Shown here one piece after another: positions 5,096-20,956 of a stretch of DNA of 25,684 bases. Where the stretch lies: the IMG/VR virus record IMGVR_UViG_3300030106_000675, positions 1-25,684 of that record; one strand, 5' to 3'. Numbering within the stretch: the stretch's first letter is position 1; every line of letters starts with the position of its first letter. Origin of the DNA: a virus. Under the pieces are notes generated by a model. It was not told the origin of the DNA. It saw nothing but the letters and a program-made list of their open reading frames with translations, and did not search any database. Position numbers and translations under genes: made by a program.

Positions 5096-5588
5096 TGAAT
5101 GTCAGATAAACGATGTCGGCTCGCCATATCTACATAAAAGAAACAAAGTAGGTCTCACTCGCATAGGCAAAAGTAGAGTTGCAAGGGCGATTGTTTACGA
5201 TCAACACATCATAGATAAAGCATATCTGCAAGACCTGATAGATGAAAAACAACATAACTGTCTTAATAAATATCTGCAAGTGATAGTAGTCAGTGGAGCT
5301 TTTCCCACTGGTGTCCAAGCTCATAAAGAAAAAATATTTACCAGTCAATATTCCTTCGCAGAACCTAGAGGTACTGTTCTAATGGGTGTTCAAAAGTTCT
5401 TAATAAATGAATGCGGAGAGTCAGTAGAAAAAAGACTATGGAAAATCATGTGCGATAATCCACAGGATGTTGATAGATTGGATTTAAAAGTTTTAGAAAA
5501 GTCTAGCAACGCATTAATGCACTACTGGTTTATTGGAAATCACTCTCCTGTTTCTTTGTTTCAACAAGCCTTGACAAACCCACTGTAG
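5073..5588 (+). CDS. Conserved hypothetical protein downstream of primase-helicase
   Basis: 171 residues from ATG 5073, chosen because AAGAGG lies about 7 nt upstream; it overlaps the primase-helicase by 23 nt. The N-terminus is basic (YLHKRNKVGLTRIGKSRVARAI), followed by a helical segment and VIVVSGAFPTGVQAHKEK. No domain is recognised. The tight overlap suggests cotranscription with the primase-helicase and perhaps a replication-related role, but nothing in the sequence proves it. Its 3' end overlaps the convergent gene at 5530-5802 by 59 nt. Confidence 0.7.
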   Translation: MISIGISNECQINDVGSPYLHKRNKVGLTRIGKSRVARAIVYDQHIIDKAYLQDLIDEKQHNCLNKYLQVIVVSGAFPTGVQAHKEKIFTSQYSFAEPRGTVLMGVQKFLINECGESVEKRLWKIMCDNPQDVDRLDLKVLEKSSNALMHYWFIGNHSPVSLFQQALTNPL

Positions 5589-6519: not shown

Positions 6520-6566
6520 AAAAAAAAAGGCGATAGCCACTATTAAAGTAGCTACCGCCTTTTTTA
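6520..6566 (-). terminator. Rho-independent terminator of the ribozyme-rich leftward operon
   Basis: An A-tract, GC-rich stem and T-tract hairpin: GGCG...ACT at 6529-6541 pairs with 6547-6559, and runs of A and T extend the stem on both sides. Read on the minus strand, the two imperfect positions are G-U pairs. Read on the plus strand they are A-C mismatches. The element is therefore better conserved as a leftward terminator. It ends 8 nt past the last gene of the operon (stop at 6577-6575). Confidence 0.85.
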
Positions 6567-6574
6567 TTTTGAGA

Positions 6575-6832
6575 TTAAACCCAATCTTCGATACATTCCC
6601 CCCCATATTCATCGAAAGGTCTGTAGTTGCTAGACCAAATTCTAGGTCGATACTTTCCTAGAGTTTTGTCCTCGCACTTTTCACAAAAATAAGCAACGAA
6701 ATCTCCCTCAGCATCATCGCATCGAGACATTTCATGTAAAGGTTTTCCCTCTTCATCTCTATTGCTTTCACAACAGCCATGATAAGGCTGTTTACTTGTG
6801 CCATAACAATACTTTTTCCAAGGCTTATTCAT
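6575..6832 (-). CDS. Small cysteine-rich protein, possible zinc ribbon
   Basis: 85 residues from ATG 6832, with GAGGAG 5 nt before it; an in-frame GTG at 6838 sits too close to that site. Seven cysteines include the pairs HGCCES and FCEKCEDKTLGKY; CEKC looks like half of a zinc knuckle. Its start overlaps the stop of the upstream gene (ATGA). It is the last gene before the terminator. Function unknown. Confidence 0.68.
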   Translation of the reverse strand: MNKPWKKYCYGTSKQPYHGCCESNRDEEGKPLHEMSRCDDAEGDFVAYFCEKCEDKTLGKYRPRIWSSNYRPFDEYGGECIEDWV

Positions 6833-7164
6833 AGACACTCCTCTATAAATACCTTTCCATCTTTAGATAGCAAAGTAATTGTATCGCCTACATCAAAGTA
6901 AACTTTGAGGTCTTTGATAGAGACTCTTTTATCTCCTCTAGGATTATTAACCCTATAAAATCTAATCTCAGTCTCATCGAGCATAGTCTTATTGTACTTA
7001 AAGACTGCATCAATGGTATGTTTTTCTCCACACCCCATCGCATTATAGTCTATGCCAAGTTCTCGTAATGCAAAATCAACCACACTTTTATTAGCATCAA
7101 TGATACTTTTATCGAGCATAGTCTTAGTAATTTTGATTACACCTATTGCTTTTTCTTTACTCAT
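6829..7164 (-). CDS. Hypothetical protein downstream of hammerhead ribozyme C
   Basis: 111 residues from ATG 7164, chosen for its strong AGGAGG 5 nt upstream; a longer frame to 7224 would run into the ribozyme. The sequence starts MSKEKAIGVIKITKTMLDK and ends with a beta-rich part (FDVGDTITLLSKDGKVFIEE) resembling a small barrel. No known domain was recognised. The ribozyme at 7197-7252 lies entirely in its 5' leader, 33 nt from the start codon. Predicted cleavage would give this gene and the next a separate mRNA with a ribozyme at its 5' end. Confidence 0.7.
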   Translation of the reverse strand: MSKEKAIGVIKITKTMLDKSIIDANKSVVDFALRELGIDYNAMGCGEKHTIDAVFKYNKTMLDETEIRFYRVNNPRGDKRVSIKDLKVYFDVGDTITLLSKDGKVFIEECL

Positions 7165-7196
7165 AATACCTCCTATTTCAAGTAAGAAATTTAATT

Positions 7197-7252
7197 TTCT
7201 GTTTCGACTCTTTTGAGTCTTCATCAGTGAAAATACACATTTTCAGACAGAA
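7197..7252 (-). ncRNA. Hammerhead ribozyme C, type III
   Basis: Reading leftward: stem III strand UUCUGU (7252-7247), cleavage nucleotide C (7246), stem I of 7 bp (UGAAAAU/AUUUUCA) with a GUGU loop, core CUGAUGA, one extra A, stem II of 5 bp (GACUC/GAGUC) with an AAAA loop, core GAA (7205-7203), then stem III partner ACAGAA (7202-7197). Stem III closes with 6 perfect pairs, including the required A15.1-U16.1. Predicted cleavage is between 7246 and 7245. The extra A between A9 and 10.1 resembles that known in the plus-strand hammerhead of chrysanthemum chlorotic mottle viroid, which is active. The ribozyme stays on the downstream mRNA. Confidence 0.9.
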
Positions 7253-7296
7253 TTTTGTAAAATTGGATGCACATACTGACCCACAAGACGATATCA

Positions 7297-7338
7297 GGAG
7301 GGGGTTAAGGGTCTAAGACCCCTGAAAAAACCCCCCCC
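7297..7338 (-). other. GC-rich hairpin between the VWA gene and ribozyme C
   Basis: A run of eight G (7338-7331, minus strand) pairs with CCCCCUCC (7304-7297), with one G-U. The loop holds a second hairpin, GGGUC/GACCC (7321-7317 with 7313-7309). It lies just after the VWA gene stop (7350) and before ribozyme C. It would protect the 3' end of the upstream mRNA after cleavage. A U-run lies inside it, not after it, so a classical terminator is not supported. Confidence 0.55.
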
Positions 7339-7349
7339 TTAAATCGCAT

Positions 7350-8732
7350 CTAGGAGTGCATACCTGAGATATCAACAGGACATATCTCGCCAAATGGTAT
7401 GTCTTTGGTGCTTGGAGGGTAGTATCTCCTTTCGTGAGTAATACCCCAAAACACAGGGACATCAGGCTCTAAGTCAGCATTGACTTCGCCAAAACCATCT
7501 GTGAAATATATGAATGCTGAGACAGTATCGACATCATCAGAGAAGTCATTGAATAAATTAAAAGGAGGGTCAAAATCAGTTCCGCCTCCACCTCTTAATT
7601 CAAACTCAATGTCCTCTCCTTGAGATAATTCAAAGACATCCCACCACTCGCCTTGAGAGTTCTTGCGAACCCTAGTATCGCAGTAGCACACTCTAACCTT
7701 TTCAATACCTAAGTCTTCACATATCAGTTGAACCGCACCACCAACATAATCTAACTCAGGCTGAGATACAGAGCATGATGTATCAATCGCAATAGCGATT
7801 TCTCCACCACTTGCAACACCTACTTGACTAGGTAAATTAATACCTCTCCATGAATGCCTTTTATTAAGTCTATTCCATGAAGATTGTTTCTCGAATGCAC
7901 CAGTTAAAAACTCCCTGATTTTATCAATCCAGTCAATGTGAATACTTTTGACCTCATTGATAGCACCTCGCATGGAAGATGAACCACTTATACTTGCAGT
8001 TTTATCAGCAAGAAAAATCTTACTCCTAATTGCATTTTGCAGTTCATCCATCTGCACTTGAGTTTTAATAGAGCCATCTTCGTTTGCACCATCCAAGACC
8101 TCGCCAACAAGTGTGGGGATTGCATCATATTTGCTACCTCCATTCCCACCTTGTTTTGTTTGCTTGGAATTTGCATCCTCAGAGAAATATTTACCAGTCA
8201 ATGTATCTTCCTCACTTTCAGAGTTATCAATCTCTTCAGAAGTGTCTCCACCTGAAGATTGATCCTCGCTATTTTCCTCGCCATCGCCATTACTAGCTTT
8301 AGCTTGTTTCATAGCATCCTCAAAGGCATCATCGTTGGTATCTAATATTCGATACACTTGTTCCGCAGTCATTCCATGATATTTTTTATCAAGAAGACCG
8401 CCCTCAGGAAGAGATAACCTCAAGTCATAAACGATGTATGCATTGATTACATAATCACATGCAATATTAAATAATTTATGATTGCGATTACCTCTCCTAC
8501 AAGGATGCTCAAAGACAACATGTAATGCCTCATGTATCAGCACCGCCTCTATCTCCTCAGGCAAGATTGTTTTAACCCATTCAGGATTGTAAAAAATTCT
8601 CTCGCCATCGGTAGCCATAGTGTCGTGCTGATTAGACTCTACTAAATCAAGACTCAGCAACATTGAGGCTATCCCAATATCTTTACGCATGAGTCTTGCT
8701 CTAGCTTTTATTACATTATTAATATCAGTCAT
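7350..8732 (-). CDS. Metallopeptidase / VWA-like protein (DUF2201 family)
   Basis: 460 residues from ATG 8732, preceded by GGGGGTAAG in the same position as the GGAGGTAA of sister genes. The N-terminal domain contains LIHEALHVVFEHP, with the HEXXH zinc motif at 67-71, in the putative metallopeptidase domain of DUF2201 proteins. A low-complexity acidic and Gly/Ser linker covers about 145-200. The C-terminal domain is VWA-like, with the metal-binding DTSCS (317-321), a GGGGTDF segment (381-387) and YFTDGFG near 409. Such proteins work with MoxR AAA+ ATPases, one of which is encoded upstream (9851-10906). The start overlaps the DUF3150-like gene by 8 nt. The role in the phage cycle is unknown; remodelling or maturation of a host or virion complex is inferred from cellular MoxR/VWA systems. 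Confidence 0.85.
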   Translation of the reverse strand: MTDINNVIKARARLMRKDIGIASMLLSLDLVESNQHDTMATDGERIFYNPEWVKTILPEEIEAVLIHEALHVVFEHPCRRGNRNHKLFNIACDYVINAYIVYDLRLSLPEGGLLDKKYHGMTAEQVYRILDTNDDAFEDAMKQAKASNGDGEENSEDQSSGGDTSEEIDNSESEEDTLTGKYFSEDANSKQTKQGGNGGSKYDAIPTLVGEVLDGANEDGSIKTQVQMDELQNAIRSKIFLADKTASISGSSSMRGAINEVKSIHIDWIDKIREFLTGAFEKQSSWNRLNKRHSWRGINLPSQVGVASGGEIAIAIDTSCSVSQPELDYVGGAVQLICEDLGIEKVRVCYCDTRVRKNSQGEWWDVFELSQGEDIEFELRGGGGTDFDPPFNLFNDFSDDVDTVSAFIYFTDGFGEVNADLEPDVPVFWGITHERRYYPPSTKDIPFGEICPVDISGMHS

Positions 8733-9702
8733 TTTTCTTACCCCCATATAGATTACCCATAAGGCTATCTTTTAAAGGGTCAATGACTGAGGTAATGTTG
8801 TCAGACACAGTTTGCCTTTTAGACTCGCCAATATCTGTATTATCTCTAAGAGACTCTACATTATTTATTTGAGCCAAGACTTGCGTAAGACCTTGATGTG
8901 CCTTAGCTATGTCCTTGTCATTACCCAACATGTCTTTATTGACTGAGGGTATCATCTGCACATTAGCTTTAAACTTTTCTATGCTAGAGTTCTTAAAGAA
9001 CCCTCCACCCTTTTTATTGGGGTCATAGCTTTTAAGTTTTTCAGCTATCTGCTCGCCTTGTTCAACAATACCACCAACAAAATCACGCATAGTTGTTTCC
9101 ACAAACTTTCGTTCTCTTTTTAGTTGTTGTTTAACAAGTCTTTTAACGACATCTTCACTTGCAGTTGTCCTTATATCGTTGCCATATTGAGATAGCATCT
9201 GCACTTCAAAATCAAACTTAAATTTACTCTTGATATCTTCGACATCAGGGTAATCTTCAATATTGAATGCATCGCCTAAATCAATTCTAGCTTGCTCGAT
9301 ATAGCTAGGATACTTCTTGCAAAAACCATCGACCTCTCTAAAAAATTGGTCTTTGGACTTGCTCAATTCTTCTAGCAATTCATCAAGCCTACTATTGGGA
9401 CATAATCTCCAACCACTCAAAACCTTATCGTCAGAGTCAGTTGAATTATCATCCCATGGCAAAGTTAAAGGATAAAATACATTGTTGCGAACCTGATTGA
9501 TGATCCTACGAAAATATTTATTCGCATTTACACCCACAAGATGTTTTGCAACATGTAAAGATTTATCAGCATTAGCAGATTTCCATACTGCTAACTCTTT
9601 CCTAAGACCCTTGTCAGTCTTGATCCCACTCCAAAATTTCGTTGTTAGACGAACAAGTGTGCAAGACTCATACAAGGGATTATTATTTTTTAAATTATCC
9701 AT
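8725..9702 (-). CDS. DUF3150-like protein of the MoxR/VWA cassette
   Basis: 325 residues, ATG 9702 with GGAGG 5-6 nt upstream. The region around 77-105 (FYPLTLPWDDN, then SGWRLCP) and the following helices (FFREVDGFCKKYPSYI, DLGDAFNIEDYP) match the pattern I associate with DUF3150, found beside MoxR ATPases in phages and bacteria. The C-terminal half is helical and charged. The gene lies between the ATPase and the metallopeptidase/VWA gene, overlapping the latter. This suggests an adaptor or substrate-specificity subunit of the same complex. Its mRNA would begin at the cleavage site of ribozyme A, 62 nt upstream of the start codon. Confidence 0.7.
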   Translation of the reverse strand: MDNLKNNNPLYESCTLVRLTTKFWSGIKTDKGLRKELAVWKSANADKSLHVAKHLVGVNANKYFRRIINQVRNNVFYPLTLPWDDNSTDSDDKVLSGWRLCPNSRLDELLEELSKSKDQFFREVDGFCKKYPSYIEQARIDLGDAFNIEDYPDVEDIKSKFKFDFEVQMLSQYGNDIRTTASEDVVKRLVKQQLKRERKFVETTMRDFVGGIVEQGEQIAEKLKSYDPNKKGGGFFKNSSIEKFKANVQMIPSVNKDMLGNDKDIAKAHQGLTQVLAQINNVESLRDNTDIGESKRQTVSDNITSVIDPLKDSLMGNLYGGKKND

Positions 9703-9737
9703 GTTACCTCCATAAAATGAATAAGTTATTTATGAAT

Positions 9738-9761
9738 GTTTTTCCCATCGCTAGGAAAAAC
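9738..9761 (-). other. 5' hairpin immediately downstream of ribozyme A cleavage site
   Basis: GUUUUUCC (9761-9754) pairs perfectly with GGAAAAAC (9745-9738) around an 8-nt loop. It begins 3 nt after the predicted cut (9765/9764), so the released mRNA would start with a hairpin. It shares three bases with stem I of the ribozyme, so the two folds would be exclusive until cleavage. Confidence 0.55.
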
Positions 9762-9850
9762 CCTTATTCCCTCAAAGGAGGGTATAGAGCATTACTGCAT
9801 CTAAGTTTAAAATTTCGTCTGCTAAGAAAACACAGACTCGTCAGAGGGTC
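9759..9850 (-). ncRNA. Hammerhead ribozyme A, type I
   Basis: It starts on the base after the ATPase stop codon (9853-9851). Reading leftward: stem I strand GACCCU (9850-9845), core CUGACGA (9844-9838), stem II GUCUG/CAGAC (9837-9833 with 9821-9817), core GAA (9816-9814), stem III strand AUUUU (9813-9809), then a 38-nt insert. The other stem III strand is GGAAU (9770-9766; three Watson-Crick and two G-U pairs), followed by cleavage nucleotide A (9765) and stem I partner AGGGUU (9764-9759; the last pair is U-G). The insert carries two hairpins with the motifs GUAAUG and CCCUCCUUUGAGGG, shared with ribozyme B. Predicted cut between 9765 and 9764; the ribozyme stays on the upstream mRNA. Confidence 0.85.
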
Positions 9851-10906
9851 TTATAAATACTCTAAATCCGCATTATTGATTTTAAAATGTGCATACGCAT
9901 TAGTATTTAATATCTCTTTTCTATTACTAGAACATTGTCTTACAAAGAAGACTGAAAATTCTCTAGTCTTCAATTTAAGAATATAGGTAAGGGCATTCTC
10001 GAACCAGTCGCAAACATCCTCTTTGCTAGCATCGTTAATCTTTTGATTAAGAGCCACGATAGTTGCAAAACAAAGACCTACCTCGTTATCAGGAACGATA
10101 TCGACTTCCTCGCCATTAACAATGTCAGTAAGATTGGGAACATCTTTTGATAGCTTGCAAAAATTCGCAAACTCAAAAGATTGTTCCTCGCCTACTAGAG
10201 TTTTAGTAATAGACTGCACATCATCGTCAATGCCTACTGCATTAAGAATGTTAGACAGATTTACCCATTGTCTAGGGCAAGGCTGAGGCTCGATGATCTT
10301 CGCATCAAATTGCTCTAATGATTGAGGCTGAAATTGAAGATAACCCAATACTGTAGGATTAACTCTATTCAACATCGCCCAATCGAGCCAATCATCAAAA
10401 TCAACATCAAACTCAATTAATGATAATCTTGAGATCACTTGCGATGGAAGTTTACTACTACTCGCCCTATCGCTTGCTCTATTTGATGCACAAACAATTC
10501 TCCACCCCTCAGGCAATTCATACTCGCCTAATTTTCTTTCGTCAATTAGTTGAGCAACAATGCTCTGCACACTAGGATGCGATTGTGCGTACTCGTCAAA
10601 GAATAGAACCCCACTACCACTAACAGGAAGATTACCCAAAAAGGCTCTCTTCTGCTCGTTCTTTTCATTGATGTATGGAAGACCGCCAAGATCGACAGAC
10701 TCATATAGCGACAGTCTAAAATCAATGTAGCCAAACTGTTTTTCAGTTGGATTAATTTTAGCTACCATTTCTCTATTGTCTGCCAATTTCTCAGCAAGAC
10801 CTCGGACTATTGCGGATTTACCCACTCCAGTTCCACCAATCAAAAAGGGTACTACCCCACCTTGTAAGCATTTATATAAATGCTCTTTTACTTTTGATGA
10901 CTTCAT
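9851..10906 (-). CDS. MoxR-type AAA+ ATPase
   Basis: 351 residues from ATG 10906, preceded by GGAGG; an ATG 12 nt further upstream overlaps that site. Walker A is GGTGVGKS (24-31), Walker B is VLFFDEY (100-106), sensor 1 lies in CASNRASDRAS (139-149) and an arginine follows in QVISRLSLIEF, as in MoxR ATPases. The C-terminal part forms a helical lid. MoxR ATPases form hexamers and act as chaperone-like machines with VWA proteins. Here the partners are the DUF3150-like and metallopeptidase/VWA proteins downstream. Ribozyme B lies upstream and ribozyme A directly after the stop, so predicted cleavage releases it as a single-gene mRNA, about 1.2 kb long. Confidence 0.9.
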   Translation of the reverse strand: MKSSKVKEHLYKCLQGGVVPFLIGGTGVGKSAIVRGLAEKLADNREMVAKINPTEKQFGYIDFRLSLYESVDLGGLPYINEKNEQKRAFLGNLPVSGSGVLFFDEYAQSHPSVQSIVAQLIDERKLGEYELPEGWRIVCASNRASDRASSSKLPSQVISRLSLIEFDVDFDDWLDWAMLNRVNPTVLGYLQFQPQSLEQFDAKIIEPQPCPRQWVNLSNILNAVGIDDDVQSITKTLVGEEQSFEFANFCKLSKDVPNLTDIVNGEEVDIVPDNEVGLCFATIVALNQKINDASKEDVCDWFENALTYILKLKTREFSVFFVRQCSSNRKEILNTNAYAHFKINNADLEYL

Positions 10907-10939
10907 AATTACCTCCATAATTTTAAGTCAGTAAGAAAA

Positions 10940-10973
10940 GTTGACTAGTAAATATTTCTATCCACTAGGCAAC
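10940..10973 (-). other. 5' hairpin immediately downstream of ribozyme B cleavage site
   Basis: GUUGCCUAGU (10973-10964) pairs with ACUAGUCAAC (10949-10940): 9 pairs and one mismatch around a 14-nt loop. It begins 5 nt after the predicted cut (10979/10978). The ATPase mRNA would thus start with a stable hairpin about 35 nt before its start codon. Confidence 0.6.
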
Positions 10974-11057
10974 ACCAAGACACCCTCAAAGGGTCAGTCC
11001 ATTACTGGATACTGGTTTAATGTTTCGACCTTATCTCAAAGGTCTTCATCAGTTGGT
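10974..11057 (-). ncRNA. Hammerhead ribozyme B, type I
   Basis: It starts on the base after the stop codon of the upstream gene (11060-11058). Reading leftward: stem I strand ACCAA (11057-11053), core CUGAUGA (11052-11046), one extra A, stem II GACC/GGUC (11044-11041 with 11030-11027), core GAA (11026-11024), stem III strand ACAUU (11023-11019), then a 34-nt insert. The other stem III strand is GGUGU (10984-10980), followed by cleavage nucleotide C (10979) and stem I partner UUGGU (10978-10974), a perfect 5-bp stem I. The insert forms CAG-UA-UCCA-GUAA-UGGA-CUG and CCCUUUGAGGG hairpins, as in ribozyme A. Predicted cut between 10979 and 10978. Confidence 0.88.
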
Positions 11058-11489
11058 TTAATAATCTAAAAAGACAGGACAATTATTTACTTTTCTTAAA
11101 GTAAAAATTGCATCATCATCGATTTCAAAATCAACACCATTCAAATGTAAAAATTGCTTATAGTTTTTTTGTGATAATTGAACGAAATCATTTTCAAACA
11201 AAAGAGCAAACAAGGTATTCAATCTCTCTCTAGTTGTTGGTGTTCCCCACCCACACATTGAGAAACATAAATGAATATTGTTGTTATCTTTTCTTGAGTT
11301 AGGCATAAATTTGTCAGATAAGTAGTCAGGGTGGAAATTCTCCCACCATGCAATTTTATTATCATGCAAATATAAACCACTAGCCGATCTCGTAAGTATG
11401 CTACCCCTCGGTATAGTATTTGAATTGCCAATTTTTTTCTTCTTGTTAAAGATAAATGCTTGAGCAATTTCTTTAGATACTTTTCTCAT
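11058..11489 (-). CDS. Conserved hypothetical phage protein
   Basis: 143 residues, ATG 11489 with GGAGG about 8 nt upstream. It begins MRKVSKEIAQAFIFNKKKK and includes a HDNKIAWW segment and CGWGTPTTRERLNTLF. The GW-x-T-x-TTRERLN motif is one I recall from unannotated marine phage proteins; no function is known. The gene overlaps the upstream small gene by 17 nt. Ribozyme B starts right after its stop codon, so predicted cleavage makes the 3' end of its mRNA. Confidence 0.72.
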   Translation of the reverse strand: MRKVSKEIAQAFIFNKKKKIGNSNTIPRGSILTRSASGLYLHDNKIAWWENFHPDYLSDKFMPNSRKDNNNIHLCFSMCGWGTPTTRERLNTLFALLFENDFVQLSQKNYKQFLHLNGVDFEIDDDAIFTLRKVNNCPVFLDY

Positions 11490-11673
11490 AAATTAATCCT
11501 CCATTGGTTGCACTCTCTATACATTCAGAATAACTATCTTGCTCGACTGTTTCCCATTCGCATAAAGGTTGGCTATCTTGGGCAATAACTTTCGCTTGTT
11601 CTTCGTTATCAGCCTCTACTATTTTGAATACTTTATAAGTGTATTCTCCTTTTACTATGTATCTAGTTTTCAT
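11473..11673 (-). CDS. Small acidic hypothetical protein
   Basis: 66 residues from ATG 11673, chosen for its GGAGG 7 nt upstream. The sequence has a YIVKGEYTYKVFKIVEADNEEQA segment, the strand-helix pattern of small phage proteins that react to nothing I can name. The ribosome-binding site and start of the next gene are encoded within its last codons. Ribozyme D lies in its leader, 30 nt upstream of the start codon. Confidence 0.68.
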   Translation of the reverse strand: MKTRYIVKGEYTYKVFKIVEADNEEQAKVIAQDSQPLCEWETVEQDSYSECIESATNGGLIYEKSI

Positions 11674-11696
11674 AATTAATCCTCCATAGATTAAGT
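11671..11696 (-). repeat. 26-bp direct repeat, copy 1 (ribosome-binding site and start codon)
   Basis: Bases 11671-11696 are identical to 11948-11973. In both places the repeat covers the start codon, the GGAGG site and the 3' flank of a type III hammerhead ribozyme. A ribozyme plus ribosome-binding-site cassette has therefore probably been duplicated. Confidence 0.85.
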
Positions 11697-11702
11697 AAGT
11701 TT

Positions 11703-11760
11703 TCTGTTTCGCATATCCCATTACAGGATGCTCGTCAGTCAGGTTAATTCCTGATACAGA
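11703..11760 (-). ncRNA. Hammerhead ribozyme D, type III, near-consensus
   Basis: Reading leftward: stem III strand UCUGU (11760-11756), cleavage nucleotide A (11755), stem I UCAGG/CCUGA with an AAUUAA loop (5 perfect pairs), core CUGACGA, stem II (GC-AUCC with GGAU-(AU)-GC, 6 pairs and a 2-nt bulge), core GAA (11710-11708), stem III partner ACAGA (11707-11703), 5 perfect pairs. No extra nucleotides occur in the core. Predicted cut between 11755 and 11754. The ribozyme remains at the 5' end of the mRNA for 11673-11058. Confidence 0.92.
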
Positions 11761-11780
11761 GGGGGGAATAAATCCCCCCT
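11760..11780 (-). other. GC-rich hairpin immediately upstream of ribozyme D
   Basis: AGGGGGGA (11780-11773) pairs perfectly with UCCCCCCU (11767-11760) around a short AU loop. It lies 5 nt after the stop codon of the 54-residue gene. It would cap the 3' end left by cleavage at 11755. A U-run precedes it on the transcribed strand, but none follows, so it is not a standard terminator. Confidence 0.7.
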
Positions 11781-11785
11781 ATTTT

Positions 11786-11950
11786 TTACAAACTATCTTT
11801 TAATATATTTAAATGTTTTAAAGACATATCTATAGCAGTGTCAAAATCACTTTGATTTCTCCAACCAACAGGCATATCTTTTATACCAAGTAAAAGAGCT
11901 TTCAATTCATTAGCTAGAATTTCTGCATACACATTTTTATCTTTATCCAT
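11786..11950 (-). CDS. Small hypothetical protein (54 residues)
   Basis: ATG 11950 with GGAGG 7 nt upstream, stop TAA at 11788-11786. The protein begins MDKDKNVYAEILANELKALL and contains GIKDMPVGWRN, ending in a short helix (LKHLNILKDSL). It is predicted to be all-helical. No family is recognised. It is the first gene of the leftward operon. It lies between ribozyme E and the hairpin and ribozyme D, and predicted cleavage at both would give an isolated mRNA of about 290 nt. Confidence 0.7.
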   Translation of the reverse strand: MDKDKNVYAEILANELKALLLGIKDMPVGWRNQSDFDTAIDMSLKHLNILKDSL

Positions 11951-11973
11951 AATTAATCCTCCATAGATTAAGT
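11948..11973 (-). repeat. 26-bp direct repeat, copy 2
   Basis: Identical to 11671-11696; see that entry. Here it joins the 54-residue gene to ribozyme E. Confidence 0.85.
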
Positions 11974-12051
11974 GTTTCTTGTACCCATCGATTGACTAGC
12001 GGAATGCTAGCAAACTGGATACTCATTCAGCTTGTTAATTCAAGGACACTT
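11970..12051 (-). ncRNA. Hammerhead ribozyme E, type III, with extra core bases
   Basis: Reading leftward: stem III strand AAGUGU (12051-12046), cleavage nucleotide C (12045), stem I CUUG/CAAG with the same AAUUAA loop as ribozyme D, core CUGAAUGA (one A more than consensus), stem II GUAUCC/GGGUAC (12022-12017 with 11986-11981, one U-G), and within it a second hairpin CUAGC/GCUAG. Two extra A follow (11980-11979), then core GAA (11978-11976) and stem III partner ACACUU (11975-11970), 6 perfect pairs. All helices are intact, but the core insertions may reduce or abolish activity. Predicted cut between 12045 and 12044. Confidence 0.68.
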
Positions 12052-12091
12052 GGAGGTGTGTCGCTACTGGAAATTATCGTCTCCGCCTCCA
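12051..12091 (-). other. Hairpin immediately upstream of ribozyme E
   Basis: UGGAGG (12091-12086) pairs with CCUCCA (12056-12051) around a 29-nt loop. The position matches the GC-rich hairpins before ribozymes C and D. The last base is shared with ribozyme stem III. Confidence 0.45.
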
Positions 12092-12264
12092 TGCCTTAGT
12101 TCCAAACTGTATCGAGTTCTTTCAGCACTTCTTTGGGTACGCTTTTTGTGAGTTAAAGAGGTAAATCTAGTGACCTCCTTGCCTATACTATCTCCTTACT
12201 ATGTGAGCAAGGCTAGACTGTTCAATTATTGCTGTTCTATAAATTGTCCTATGTTCGTTGTCAT
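12092..12264 (-). other. Untranslated leader of the leftward operon
   Basis: About 170 nt between the promoter start and the first hairpin. I found only very short frames. Two purine-rich ribosome-binding-like sequences near 12165-12185 have no start codon at a useful distance. Nothing else is supported. Confidence 0.4.
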
Positions 12265-12270
12265 AAGATG

Positions 12271-12298
12271 ATTATACCTACATTGTAATCATATTCAA
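12271..12298 (-). promoter_or_regulatory. Leftward sigma70-like promoter of the ribozyme-rich operon
   Basis: TTGAAT at 12298-12293, a 16-nt spacer and a perfect TATAAT at 12276-12271. RNA would start near 12264. It faces the five ribozymes and the terminator at 6520-6566, and stands back to back with the terminase genes. Confidence 0.65.
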
Positions 12299-12396
12299 CA
12301 CCATATCTGCTCGCACTCTGTGAGCATTCCCAAACTATCAATGACCAGTTAATATTTAGGTTAGTAATGTAATCCGCAGCCTTCGATATTTGAACC

Positions 12397-20017: not shown

Positions 20018-20956
20018 ATGGCTATTTCAAGAGCTAATGAGCTTAAACAGCTTCTACCAGGCTTAAACGCTTTGTTTGGAGAAGAGTACAATAACTACGA
20101 GAACGAGCATGAAGAAATTTATTCAACTGAGAACTCTGAAAGAAGTTTTGAAGAGGAACTCAAGTTGTCAGGTTTCGGTGCTGCTCCAGTAAAAGACGAA
20201 GGTTCTTCAATATCTTTTGATACTGCACAAGAATCTTTTGTTGCTCGTTATACACATGAAACTATTGCTTTAGGTTTTAGTGTTACAGAGGAGGCTATGG
20301 AAGATAATTTATATGTATCTTTGTCTGCTCGATACACAAAGGCTTTAGCAAGAGCAATGGCTTACACTAAACAAGTTAAGTCAGCGTTTCCTTTGAATAA
20401 CGGCTTTACCAATTCATTCCAATCAGGAGATGGGGTTAACCTATTTACTGCTGATGGTGATGGAGTAACAGGTGGTGATGGACACCCATTAGTGTCAGGC
20501 GGAAAAAATTCCAATAGACCATCCACTGGTGCTGACTTGAATGAAACATCTTTAGAAGATGCTATTATTCAGATTGGTAAATGGACTGATGAGAGAGGAC
20601 TTAAAATTGCTGCTAGACCAGTAAAATTAATCGTTCCATCAGACCTGCAGTTTGTTGCAACTCGTCTTCTTGAAAGTGAGTACAGAGTTGGTACTGCTGA
20701 CAATGACATTAATGCTATTAGAAGCAATGGTGTGATACCGCAAGGTTTTTCAGTTAATCATTATTTAACTGATACAAATGCCTTCTTTATCATTACTGAT
20801 GTGCCTGATGGCATGAAGCATTTTGTCAGAAGTCCAATGACTACAAGCATGGATGGAGACTTTGACACTGGTAATGTGAGATACAAAGCTAGAGAAAGAT
20901 ATTCCTTTGGAGTATCTGACCCTCTTGGTATCTTTGGTTCACCAGGCTCAAGCTAA
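20018..20956 (+). CDS. Major capsid protein
   Basis: 312 residues. The N-terminal part (MAISRANELKQLLPGLNALFG) is followed by YARYTHETIALGFSVTEEAMEDNLY-like sequence (here ARYTHETIALGFSVTEEAM), long helices with ALARAMAYTKQ, the peripheral domain LIVPSDLQFVATRLLES, and a C-terminal strand region ending RYKARERYSFGVSDPLGIFGS. The RYSFGV... end is common in HK97-fold capsid proteins of Mu-like and marine phages. A terminator follows 6 nt after the stop, which would boost capsid mRNA over the genes downstream. Confidence 0.9.
   Translation: MAISRANELKQLLPGLNALFGEEYNNYENEHEEIYSTENSERSFEEELKLSGFGAAPVKDEGSSISFDTAQESFVARYTHETIALGFSVTEEAMEDNLYVSLSARYTKALARAMAYTKQVKSAFPLNNGFTNSFQSGDGVNLFTADGDGVTGGDGHPLVSGGKNSNRPSTGADLNETSLEDAIIQIGKWTDERGLKIAARPVKLIVPSDLQFVATRLLESEYRVGTADNDINAIRSNGVIPQGFSVNHYLTDTNAFFIITDVPDGMKHFVRSPMTTSMDGDFDTGNVRYKARERYSFGVSDPLGIFGSPGSS

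Follow-up and report, generated by a model that had tools for sequence, protein, structure and literature searches.

Gene content and boundaries of the operon

The window, i.e. the whole 25.7 kb virus record analysed here, has one operon on the minus strand, from about position 12300 down to 6520. Beyond 12.4 kb, the plus strand encodes the terminase subunits, the portal protein and the major head protein. The portal protein is nearest to that of the Pelagibacter phage HTVC023P group (42-46% identity), and the hammerhead-bearing window belongs to a marine-type phage. A nucleotide search of 50,697 phage records with the window returned zero matches. Relatives of the MoxR and VWA proteins described below are common in N4-like and other phages, with low identity.

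All the coordinates of the operon refer to the minus strand. The region's best promoter-like site, a sigma-70-like TTGAAT-16-TATAAT sequence matching the consensus at 10 of 12 positions, lies at 12271-12298. It is followed by a 54-residue gene without family match (11786-11950), a 66-residue gene whose start was taken from the sequence (11473-11673), a gene for a Kyanoviridae Gp96-like protein (PF23790; 11058-11489) and a gene for a MoxR-like AAA ATPase (AAA_5; 9851-10918, with a likely start codon at 10906). The DUF3150-like protein gene (8725-9702) and the metallopeptidase/VWA-like protein gene (PF13203, PF09967; 7350-8747) overlap by 23 nt, and no ribozyme is present between them. A 111-residue gene (6829-7164) and the last gene, without confident family (6575-6838), complete the operon, which is closed by the region's best intrinsic terminator, a hairpin of 19 pairs at 6523-6565.

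The relative L001 aligns with the window at both operon ends and shows again the hexamers of the promoter and the hairpin of the terminator. An initial sequence-only reading of this DNA had proposed a good promoter and a good terminator at these places. Each is the top-ranking site of its class there, but promoter-like matches in the region are no commoner than in shuffled sequences.

Detection and structure of five hammerhead ribozymes

The same reading had placed five hammerhead ribozymes in the operon, with cuts after 12045, 11755, 10979, 9765 and 7246. We searched the window with a descriptor composed without these coordinates, which demands the core CUGA(A)NGA and GAAA, the A15.1-U16.1 pair, H17 and three helices, in the type I and type III arrangements. 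On the minus strand it recovered exactly five sites, with scores of 32-40: the leader hammerhead, of type III (11970-12051, cut after 12045), a second type III (11703-11760, cut after 11755), two of type I (10974-11057, cut after 10979; 9757-9852, cut after 9765) and a last type III (7197-7252, cut after 7246). In 40 dinucleotide shuffles, the same scan gave 0.2 matches with a score of at least 14 per 51 kb strand, and none of at least 30. Type II hammerheads were also sought in the window and none was found. A weak plus-strand match (20563-20678, score 27) has a long loop and lies inside the coding sequence of the capsid gene; it was taken as a chance match.

Three covariance models, built from relatives alone with the window left out, recovered all the five sites, with E values of 6.4e-12 (12045), 3.5e-7 (11755), 1.5e-20 (10979), 5.8e-9 (9765) and 1.6e-19 (7246). 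The Rfam 15 models, proposed earlier as the check, matched none of the five at gathering score. At relaxed score, Hammerhead_3 matched the 11755 site with 30.1 bits (E 0.002) and gave a mis-registered match at 9807-9865 with 20.6 bits (E 1). The null result at gathering score reflects a limit of the Rfam models for phage hammerheads such as these.

The core C3UGANGA9 and G12AAA is exact in four of the five hammerheads. The exception is the leader ribozyme at 12045, which reads CUGAAUGA, A6 being followed by one additional A and G12 preceded by two; this variant core is itself kept in relatives. In the 10979 and 7246 ribozymes, one additional A follows A9, ahead of stem II. The A15.1-U16.1 pair and a base other than G at the cut are present in all five, as demanded by the scanner, the cut bases being C, A, C, A and C. 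By single-sequence folding, the minimum free energy (MFE) structure is the hammerhead for 12045 and 7246; for 9765, stems I and II are formed and stem III is missing, when 11755 and 10979 are folded in isolation, stem III competes with other pairings in the MFE structure. At the level of sequence and predicted structure, the five folds are confirmed as hammerheads, that of the leader with a variant core.

Conservation, covariation and exchange of types in related phages

In the relative L001, whose MoxR is 79% identical to that of the window, the operon recurs and bears six hammerheads, and L002-L018, in which the VWA protein is 47-51% identical, carry four to seven each. The leader hammerhead is 93% identical to its L001 counterpart over 84 nt. 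Across 49 loci with the MoxR/DUF3150/VWA module, some of them from same or near-identical phages, 191 hammerheads are in sense orientation and one is antisense, with up to seven per operon.

Measured against the protein coordinates, the positions recur from phage to phage. Hammerheads lie in the leader; others precede MoxR by 43-80 nt and DUF3150 typically by 65-80 nt, and still others follow VWA at a distance of about 100 nt. The MoxR proteins of relatives sharing these hammerhead junctions have identities of 25-79%. At the DUF3150/VWA junction, no hammerhead was found where the two genes overlap, as in the window, whereas the gaps of about 90-140 nt in L073, L084 and L090 do contain one.

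Compensatory changes in related phages, which the initial reading had proposed to look for, were found. For the 7246 family, regions were picked by protein coordinates and core motif, stems not being required. In this alignment 97.6% of the cells are paired and double changes occur at 12 of the 18 pairs, with 44 double-change cells against 13.9 in shuffled alignments; controls with slid partners gave no signal. The 10979 and leader families exhibit a compensatory-change signal like that of the 7246 family. For 9765, two stem III pairs differ from the L001 counterpart with both sides changed, in a comparison of two sequences. Across the relatives, CUGANGA, GAAA, U16.1 and the non-G cut base are retained while the stems vary.

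The MoxR/DUF3150 junction holds a type I hammerhead in the window and L001, and a type III in most other relatives. When the regions of this junction were chosen by protein coordinates alone, the catalytic core motif was present in 27 of 29. The cut site is thus kept though the ribozyme is replaced, which points to selection on cleavage of the junction and not on a particular sequence. At the same junction, L033 and L145 present hammerhead-like folds in which stem II is limited to about one or two pairs; their stem III covaries (AAUCCU/AGGAUU versus AAUCGU/ACGAUU). Upstream of MoxR, L009 and L007 have a type I core reading CCGAUGA (U4C), possibly impaired.

Type III hammerheads with a two-hairpin insert

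Several junctions of the relatives that had seemed empty turned out to contain a type III hammerhead in which 28-40 nt are inserted after A9, ahead of stem II. This insert consists of two abutting hairpins, the first with 4 bp and mostly a GNRA-type loop. Such ribozymes lie at L001:9660-9765, L006:2753-2847, L093:2732-2815 and, twice, at L015:2781-2876 and 5420-5490. The insert is found at two junctions in one lineage, and also, with a different sequence, in the distant L093. The five-helix form is both the MFE and the centroid structure (z -4.1 and -5.7) and shows compensatory changes. Structured inserts between A9 and stem II occur in ten or so distinct ribozymes, their presence differing between homologous sites of close relatives. 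According to a 2023 paper, an insert at the junction of core and stem II is in no known hammerhead alignment.

Stop codons and hairpins at the predicted cut sites

The two types differ in how they are placed relative to the upstream gene. For type I, the upstream stop codon ends no more than 10 nt away from the start of the ribozyme in 41 of 60 cluster representatives, versus none of 35 for type III. In some type I ribozymes, the UGA of the catalytic core doubles as the stop codon. In the window, the 10979 hammerhead starts at the base right after the upstream TAA stop and the 9765 hammerhead overlaps the TAA stop codon of MoxR.

Of 33 type III representatives, 82% have a strong hairpin (z<-2) in the interval from stop codon to ribozyme, compared with 18% in the control (p 8e-10). 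Several of the exceptions are leader ribozymes, as there is no gene there to end. An earlier flank test on clustered sequences, with fixed 60-nt windows, gave modest signals (type III upstream, p 0.001) and, in the module contigs, no difference between type I upstream and type III upstream (p 0.23); the type III hairpin became clear once the interval was anchored at the stop codon.

Both type III ribozymes that follow a gene in the window have such a hairpin, predicted to act as a 3' end cap. Between the stop codon and the 11755 hammerhead lies a G6-AUUUAUU-C6 hairpin (11761-11779), within a 25-nt element also present in L001. After the VWA stop, a strong G-rich hairpin (7283-7347, -35 kcal/mol) precedes the 7246 hammerhead. 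The post-VWA hairpin is found in nearly all the members of the main lineage and is very stable across window and relatives (-23 to -38 kcal/mol), its sequence being replaced wholesale between lineages. In some lineages, UCAGGGG/CCCCUGA could pair there as a pseudoknot.

With stop-fused type I and hairpin-preceded type III ribozymes, nearly every predicted cut would give the upstream message a structured 3' end. Together with the terminator at 6523, the hairpins of the window would let every predicted message of this operon end in a stable structure.

Hammerheads beyond the module lineage

Searched at the DNA level alone, one type I form matched at least 119 stretches in viral contigs. Among the matches listed, for type I and one further pattern, 110 of 129 loci passed the full scan. 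As a negative control, the same type I pattern was run on 84,980 cellular genomes; none of the 90 matches passed the full scan. Arrays also occur in a separate kind of operon, which is unrelated to the MoxR module and encodes glutamine-amidotransferase, amidoligase-like and gamma-glutamyl-cyclotransferase proteins: G007 (L173:9000-17500) carries seven hammerheads of type I, each separated from the next by one main gene, and G002 (L160) has four of type III.

No hammerhead lies in the first 50 kb of the five cultured phages that are closest in their portal protein (HTVC023P, HTVC027P, 023Pt_psg01, DSL-LC04 and CRP-902), and none was found in the regions examined of MEP401, S-TIM54 and two Manatee Spring genomes. 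The cultured Tetrasphaera phage TJE1 (HQ225832) presents a type III hammerhead at L192:4982, antisense to the annotated orf18; this hammerhead belongs to the same subclass, with a U bulge and an AAAA loop.

Discussion

The comparison across relatives supports the folds, their conservation, their placement at junctions, their strand and the stop and hairpin rules, as far as sequences can speak. From these we consider it likely that the operon segments itself co-transcriptionally at the five hammerheads into end-protected mRNAs. Transcription starting at the promoter near 12280 would yield a single RNA that reaches as far as the terminator near 6523 and cuts itself while being made. This would release the leader and separate messages for the 54-residue gene, the next two genes, MoxR by itself, DUF3150 with VWA, and the final two genes. 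Each message would present its stop codon with a stable structure close behind. At a type I cut, the ribozyme body, fused to the stop codon, would stay on the upstream message and form its 3' end; at a type III cut after a gene, the dedicated hairpin would close the upstream message and the ribozyme body would remain on the downstream one as a 5' leader. The final message would be closed by the terminator hairpin. The likely purpose would be that every gene unit obtains mature ends of its own with no need of host RNases or internal terminators, which may allow stability and dosage to be set unit by unit, e.g. for MoxR alone.

This segmentation map agrees with that of the sequence-only reading and has gained the conserved junctions, the sense orientation, the covarying stems and the stop codons and hairpins at the cuts; for cleavage in the cell, as for 3' protection and dosage control, we infer it from this layout. 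The A6a insertion of the leader ribozyme counts against self-cutting, such an insertion being associated with low activity (PMC3088659). The competing pairings of stem III in the separate folds of 11755 and 10979, the lack of hammerheads in the first 50 kb of the five cultured portal-protein relatives and the scores below Rfam gathering level also weigh against it.

Cutting might instead be conditional, on a ribosome at the stop codon or on a ligand or protein bound to the insert, so that the arrays select which genes are expressed. Type I ribozymes do overlap stop codons, sometimes through the core UGA itself, and a terminating ribosome should block the folding of a ribozyme lying over its stop codon; the structured inserts and the variant cores (A6a, U4C) would also fit regulated switches. 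We nevertheless regard this as rather unlikely, because the cores are mostly canonical and the helices ordinary, the insert comes and goes between homologous sites of close relatives, and a known ligand or partner is lacking. That the folds are non-catalytic and kept as plain structural leaders stabilising 5' ends is very improbable: structure alone could protect an mRNA and some members have variant cores, but CUGANGA, GAAA, U16.1 and the non-G cut site are retained as the stems change, and clustered hammerheads of this sort from phages are reported to cleave (PMC3088659).

Two further readings have, in our judgement, hardly any probability. In one, segments freed by paired cuts would be closed into circles or ligated to one another as joined messages. 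The 2',3'-cyclic phosphate and 5'-hydroxyl ends that a hammerhead produces are substrates of RtcB, which speaks for such a pathway; however, the RtcB family had zero matches in 13 related phage records, with control genomes positive, while in a search for T4-type RNA ligases the controls gave no signal. Circles and spliced products were sought for clustered hammerheads and none was seen (PMC3088659). The hammerheads could also be remnants of selfish elements, passengers of mobile DNA sitting between genes by chance, as hammerheads are frequent in selfish elements (PMC3088659) and similar classes recur across different phage operons. This reading is disfavoured by the junctions conserved over MoxR identities of 25-79%, the use of one strand only, the covariation and the fixed spacing to stop and start codons.

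Returning to co-transcriptional self-segmentation, a broader form of it can be put forward tentatively. Stop codon, hairpin and hammerhead together may serve many phages as punctuation that replaces terminators and RNase sites, with type I ribozymes reading the core UGA or an adjacent stop, their cut being gated by a terminating ribosome, and with the two-hairpin inserts of some type III ribozymes, in the five-helix form, tuning or sensing.

The arrangement in the window is not wholly new, since clusters and the processing idea were published in 2011. Perreault et al. (PMC3088659) described clustered hammerheads flanking genes in prophages and proposed that long phage transcripts are processed into operon- or gene-length mRNAs; their tandem sets cleave in vitro, and a triple cluster also in E. 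coli. As in those clusters, several same-strand hammerheads of mixed type lie here between the genes of a predicted phage transcript, flanking single genes or short blocks. Unlike in that work, five lie in one bounded operon, and six or seven in relatives; they are conserved junction by junction across a phage lineage, with exchange of types; and the genes differ (ardA and others in the Perreault set). The PMC3088659 text as read does not state the stop-codon and hairpin rules. The initial reading knew of no described operon of this density; clusters and processing had been described, whereas the density (five, and up to seven in relatives) and the layout rules exceed the open-access literature found, and later subscription work may cover such arrays. 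What a specialist would find surprising are the layout rules and the insert ribozymes.

A leader hammerhead in a phage operon is also known from the HHphage ribozyme in the early-operon leader of haloviruses HF1/HF2, where the transcript 5' end has been mapped to a point no more than 3 nt from the cut and the ribozyme is probably active in vivo (PMC3088659). There, a single ribozyme is present, the host is archaeal and the core insertion is near C3, in contrast to the insertions after A6 or A9 found here. The 11755, 12045 and 7246 ribozymes share core (a variant one at 12045), three helices and predicted cleavage geometry with type III of RF00008, but they fall below the Rfam gathering cut-off and differ by a one-nt bulge before stem II and by conserved loops (AAUUAA; GUGU/AAAA). 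The type I ribozymes have the open stem I topology of metazoan repeats and retrozymes (PMC7229834, PMC6155905); unlike those, they are intergenic in a phage, stop-fused and outside repeats.

These results indicate that the Rfam models overlook phage hammerheads such as these, and the 28-40 nt inserted after A9, ahead of stem II, in some relatives widen the known hammerhead architecture. The role of prokaryotic hammerheads has been an open question, tied to phages (PMC6155905). With a conserved, exchangeable hammerhead at nearly every non-overlapping junction, the operons of this phage lineage offer a testable role: the ribozymes may provide the phage with self-made mRNA ends.
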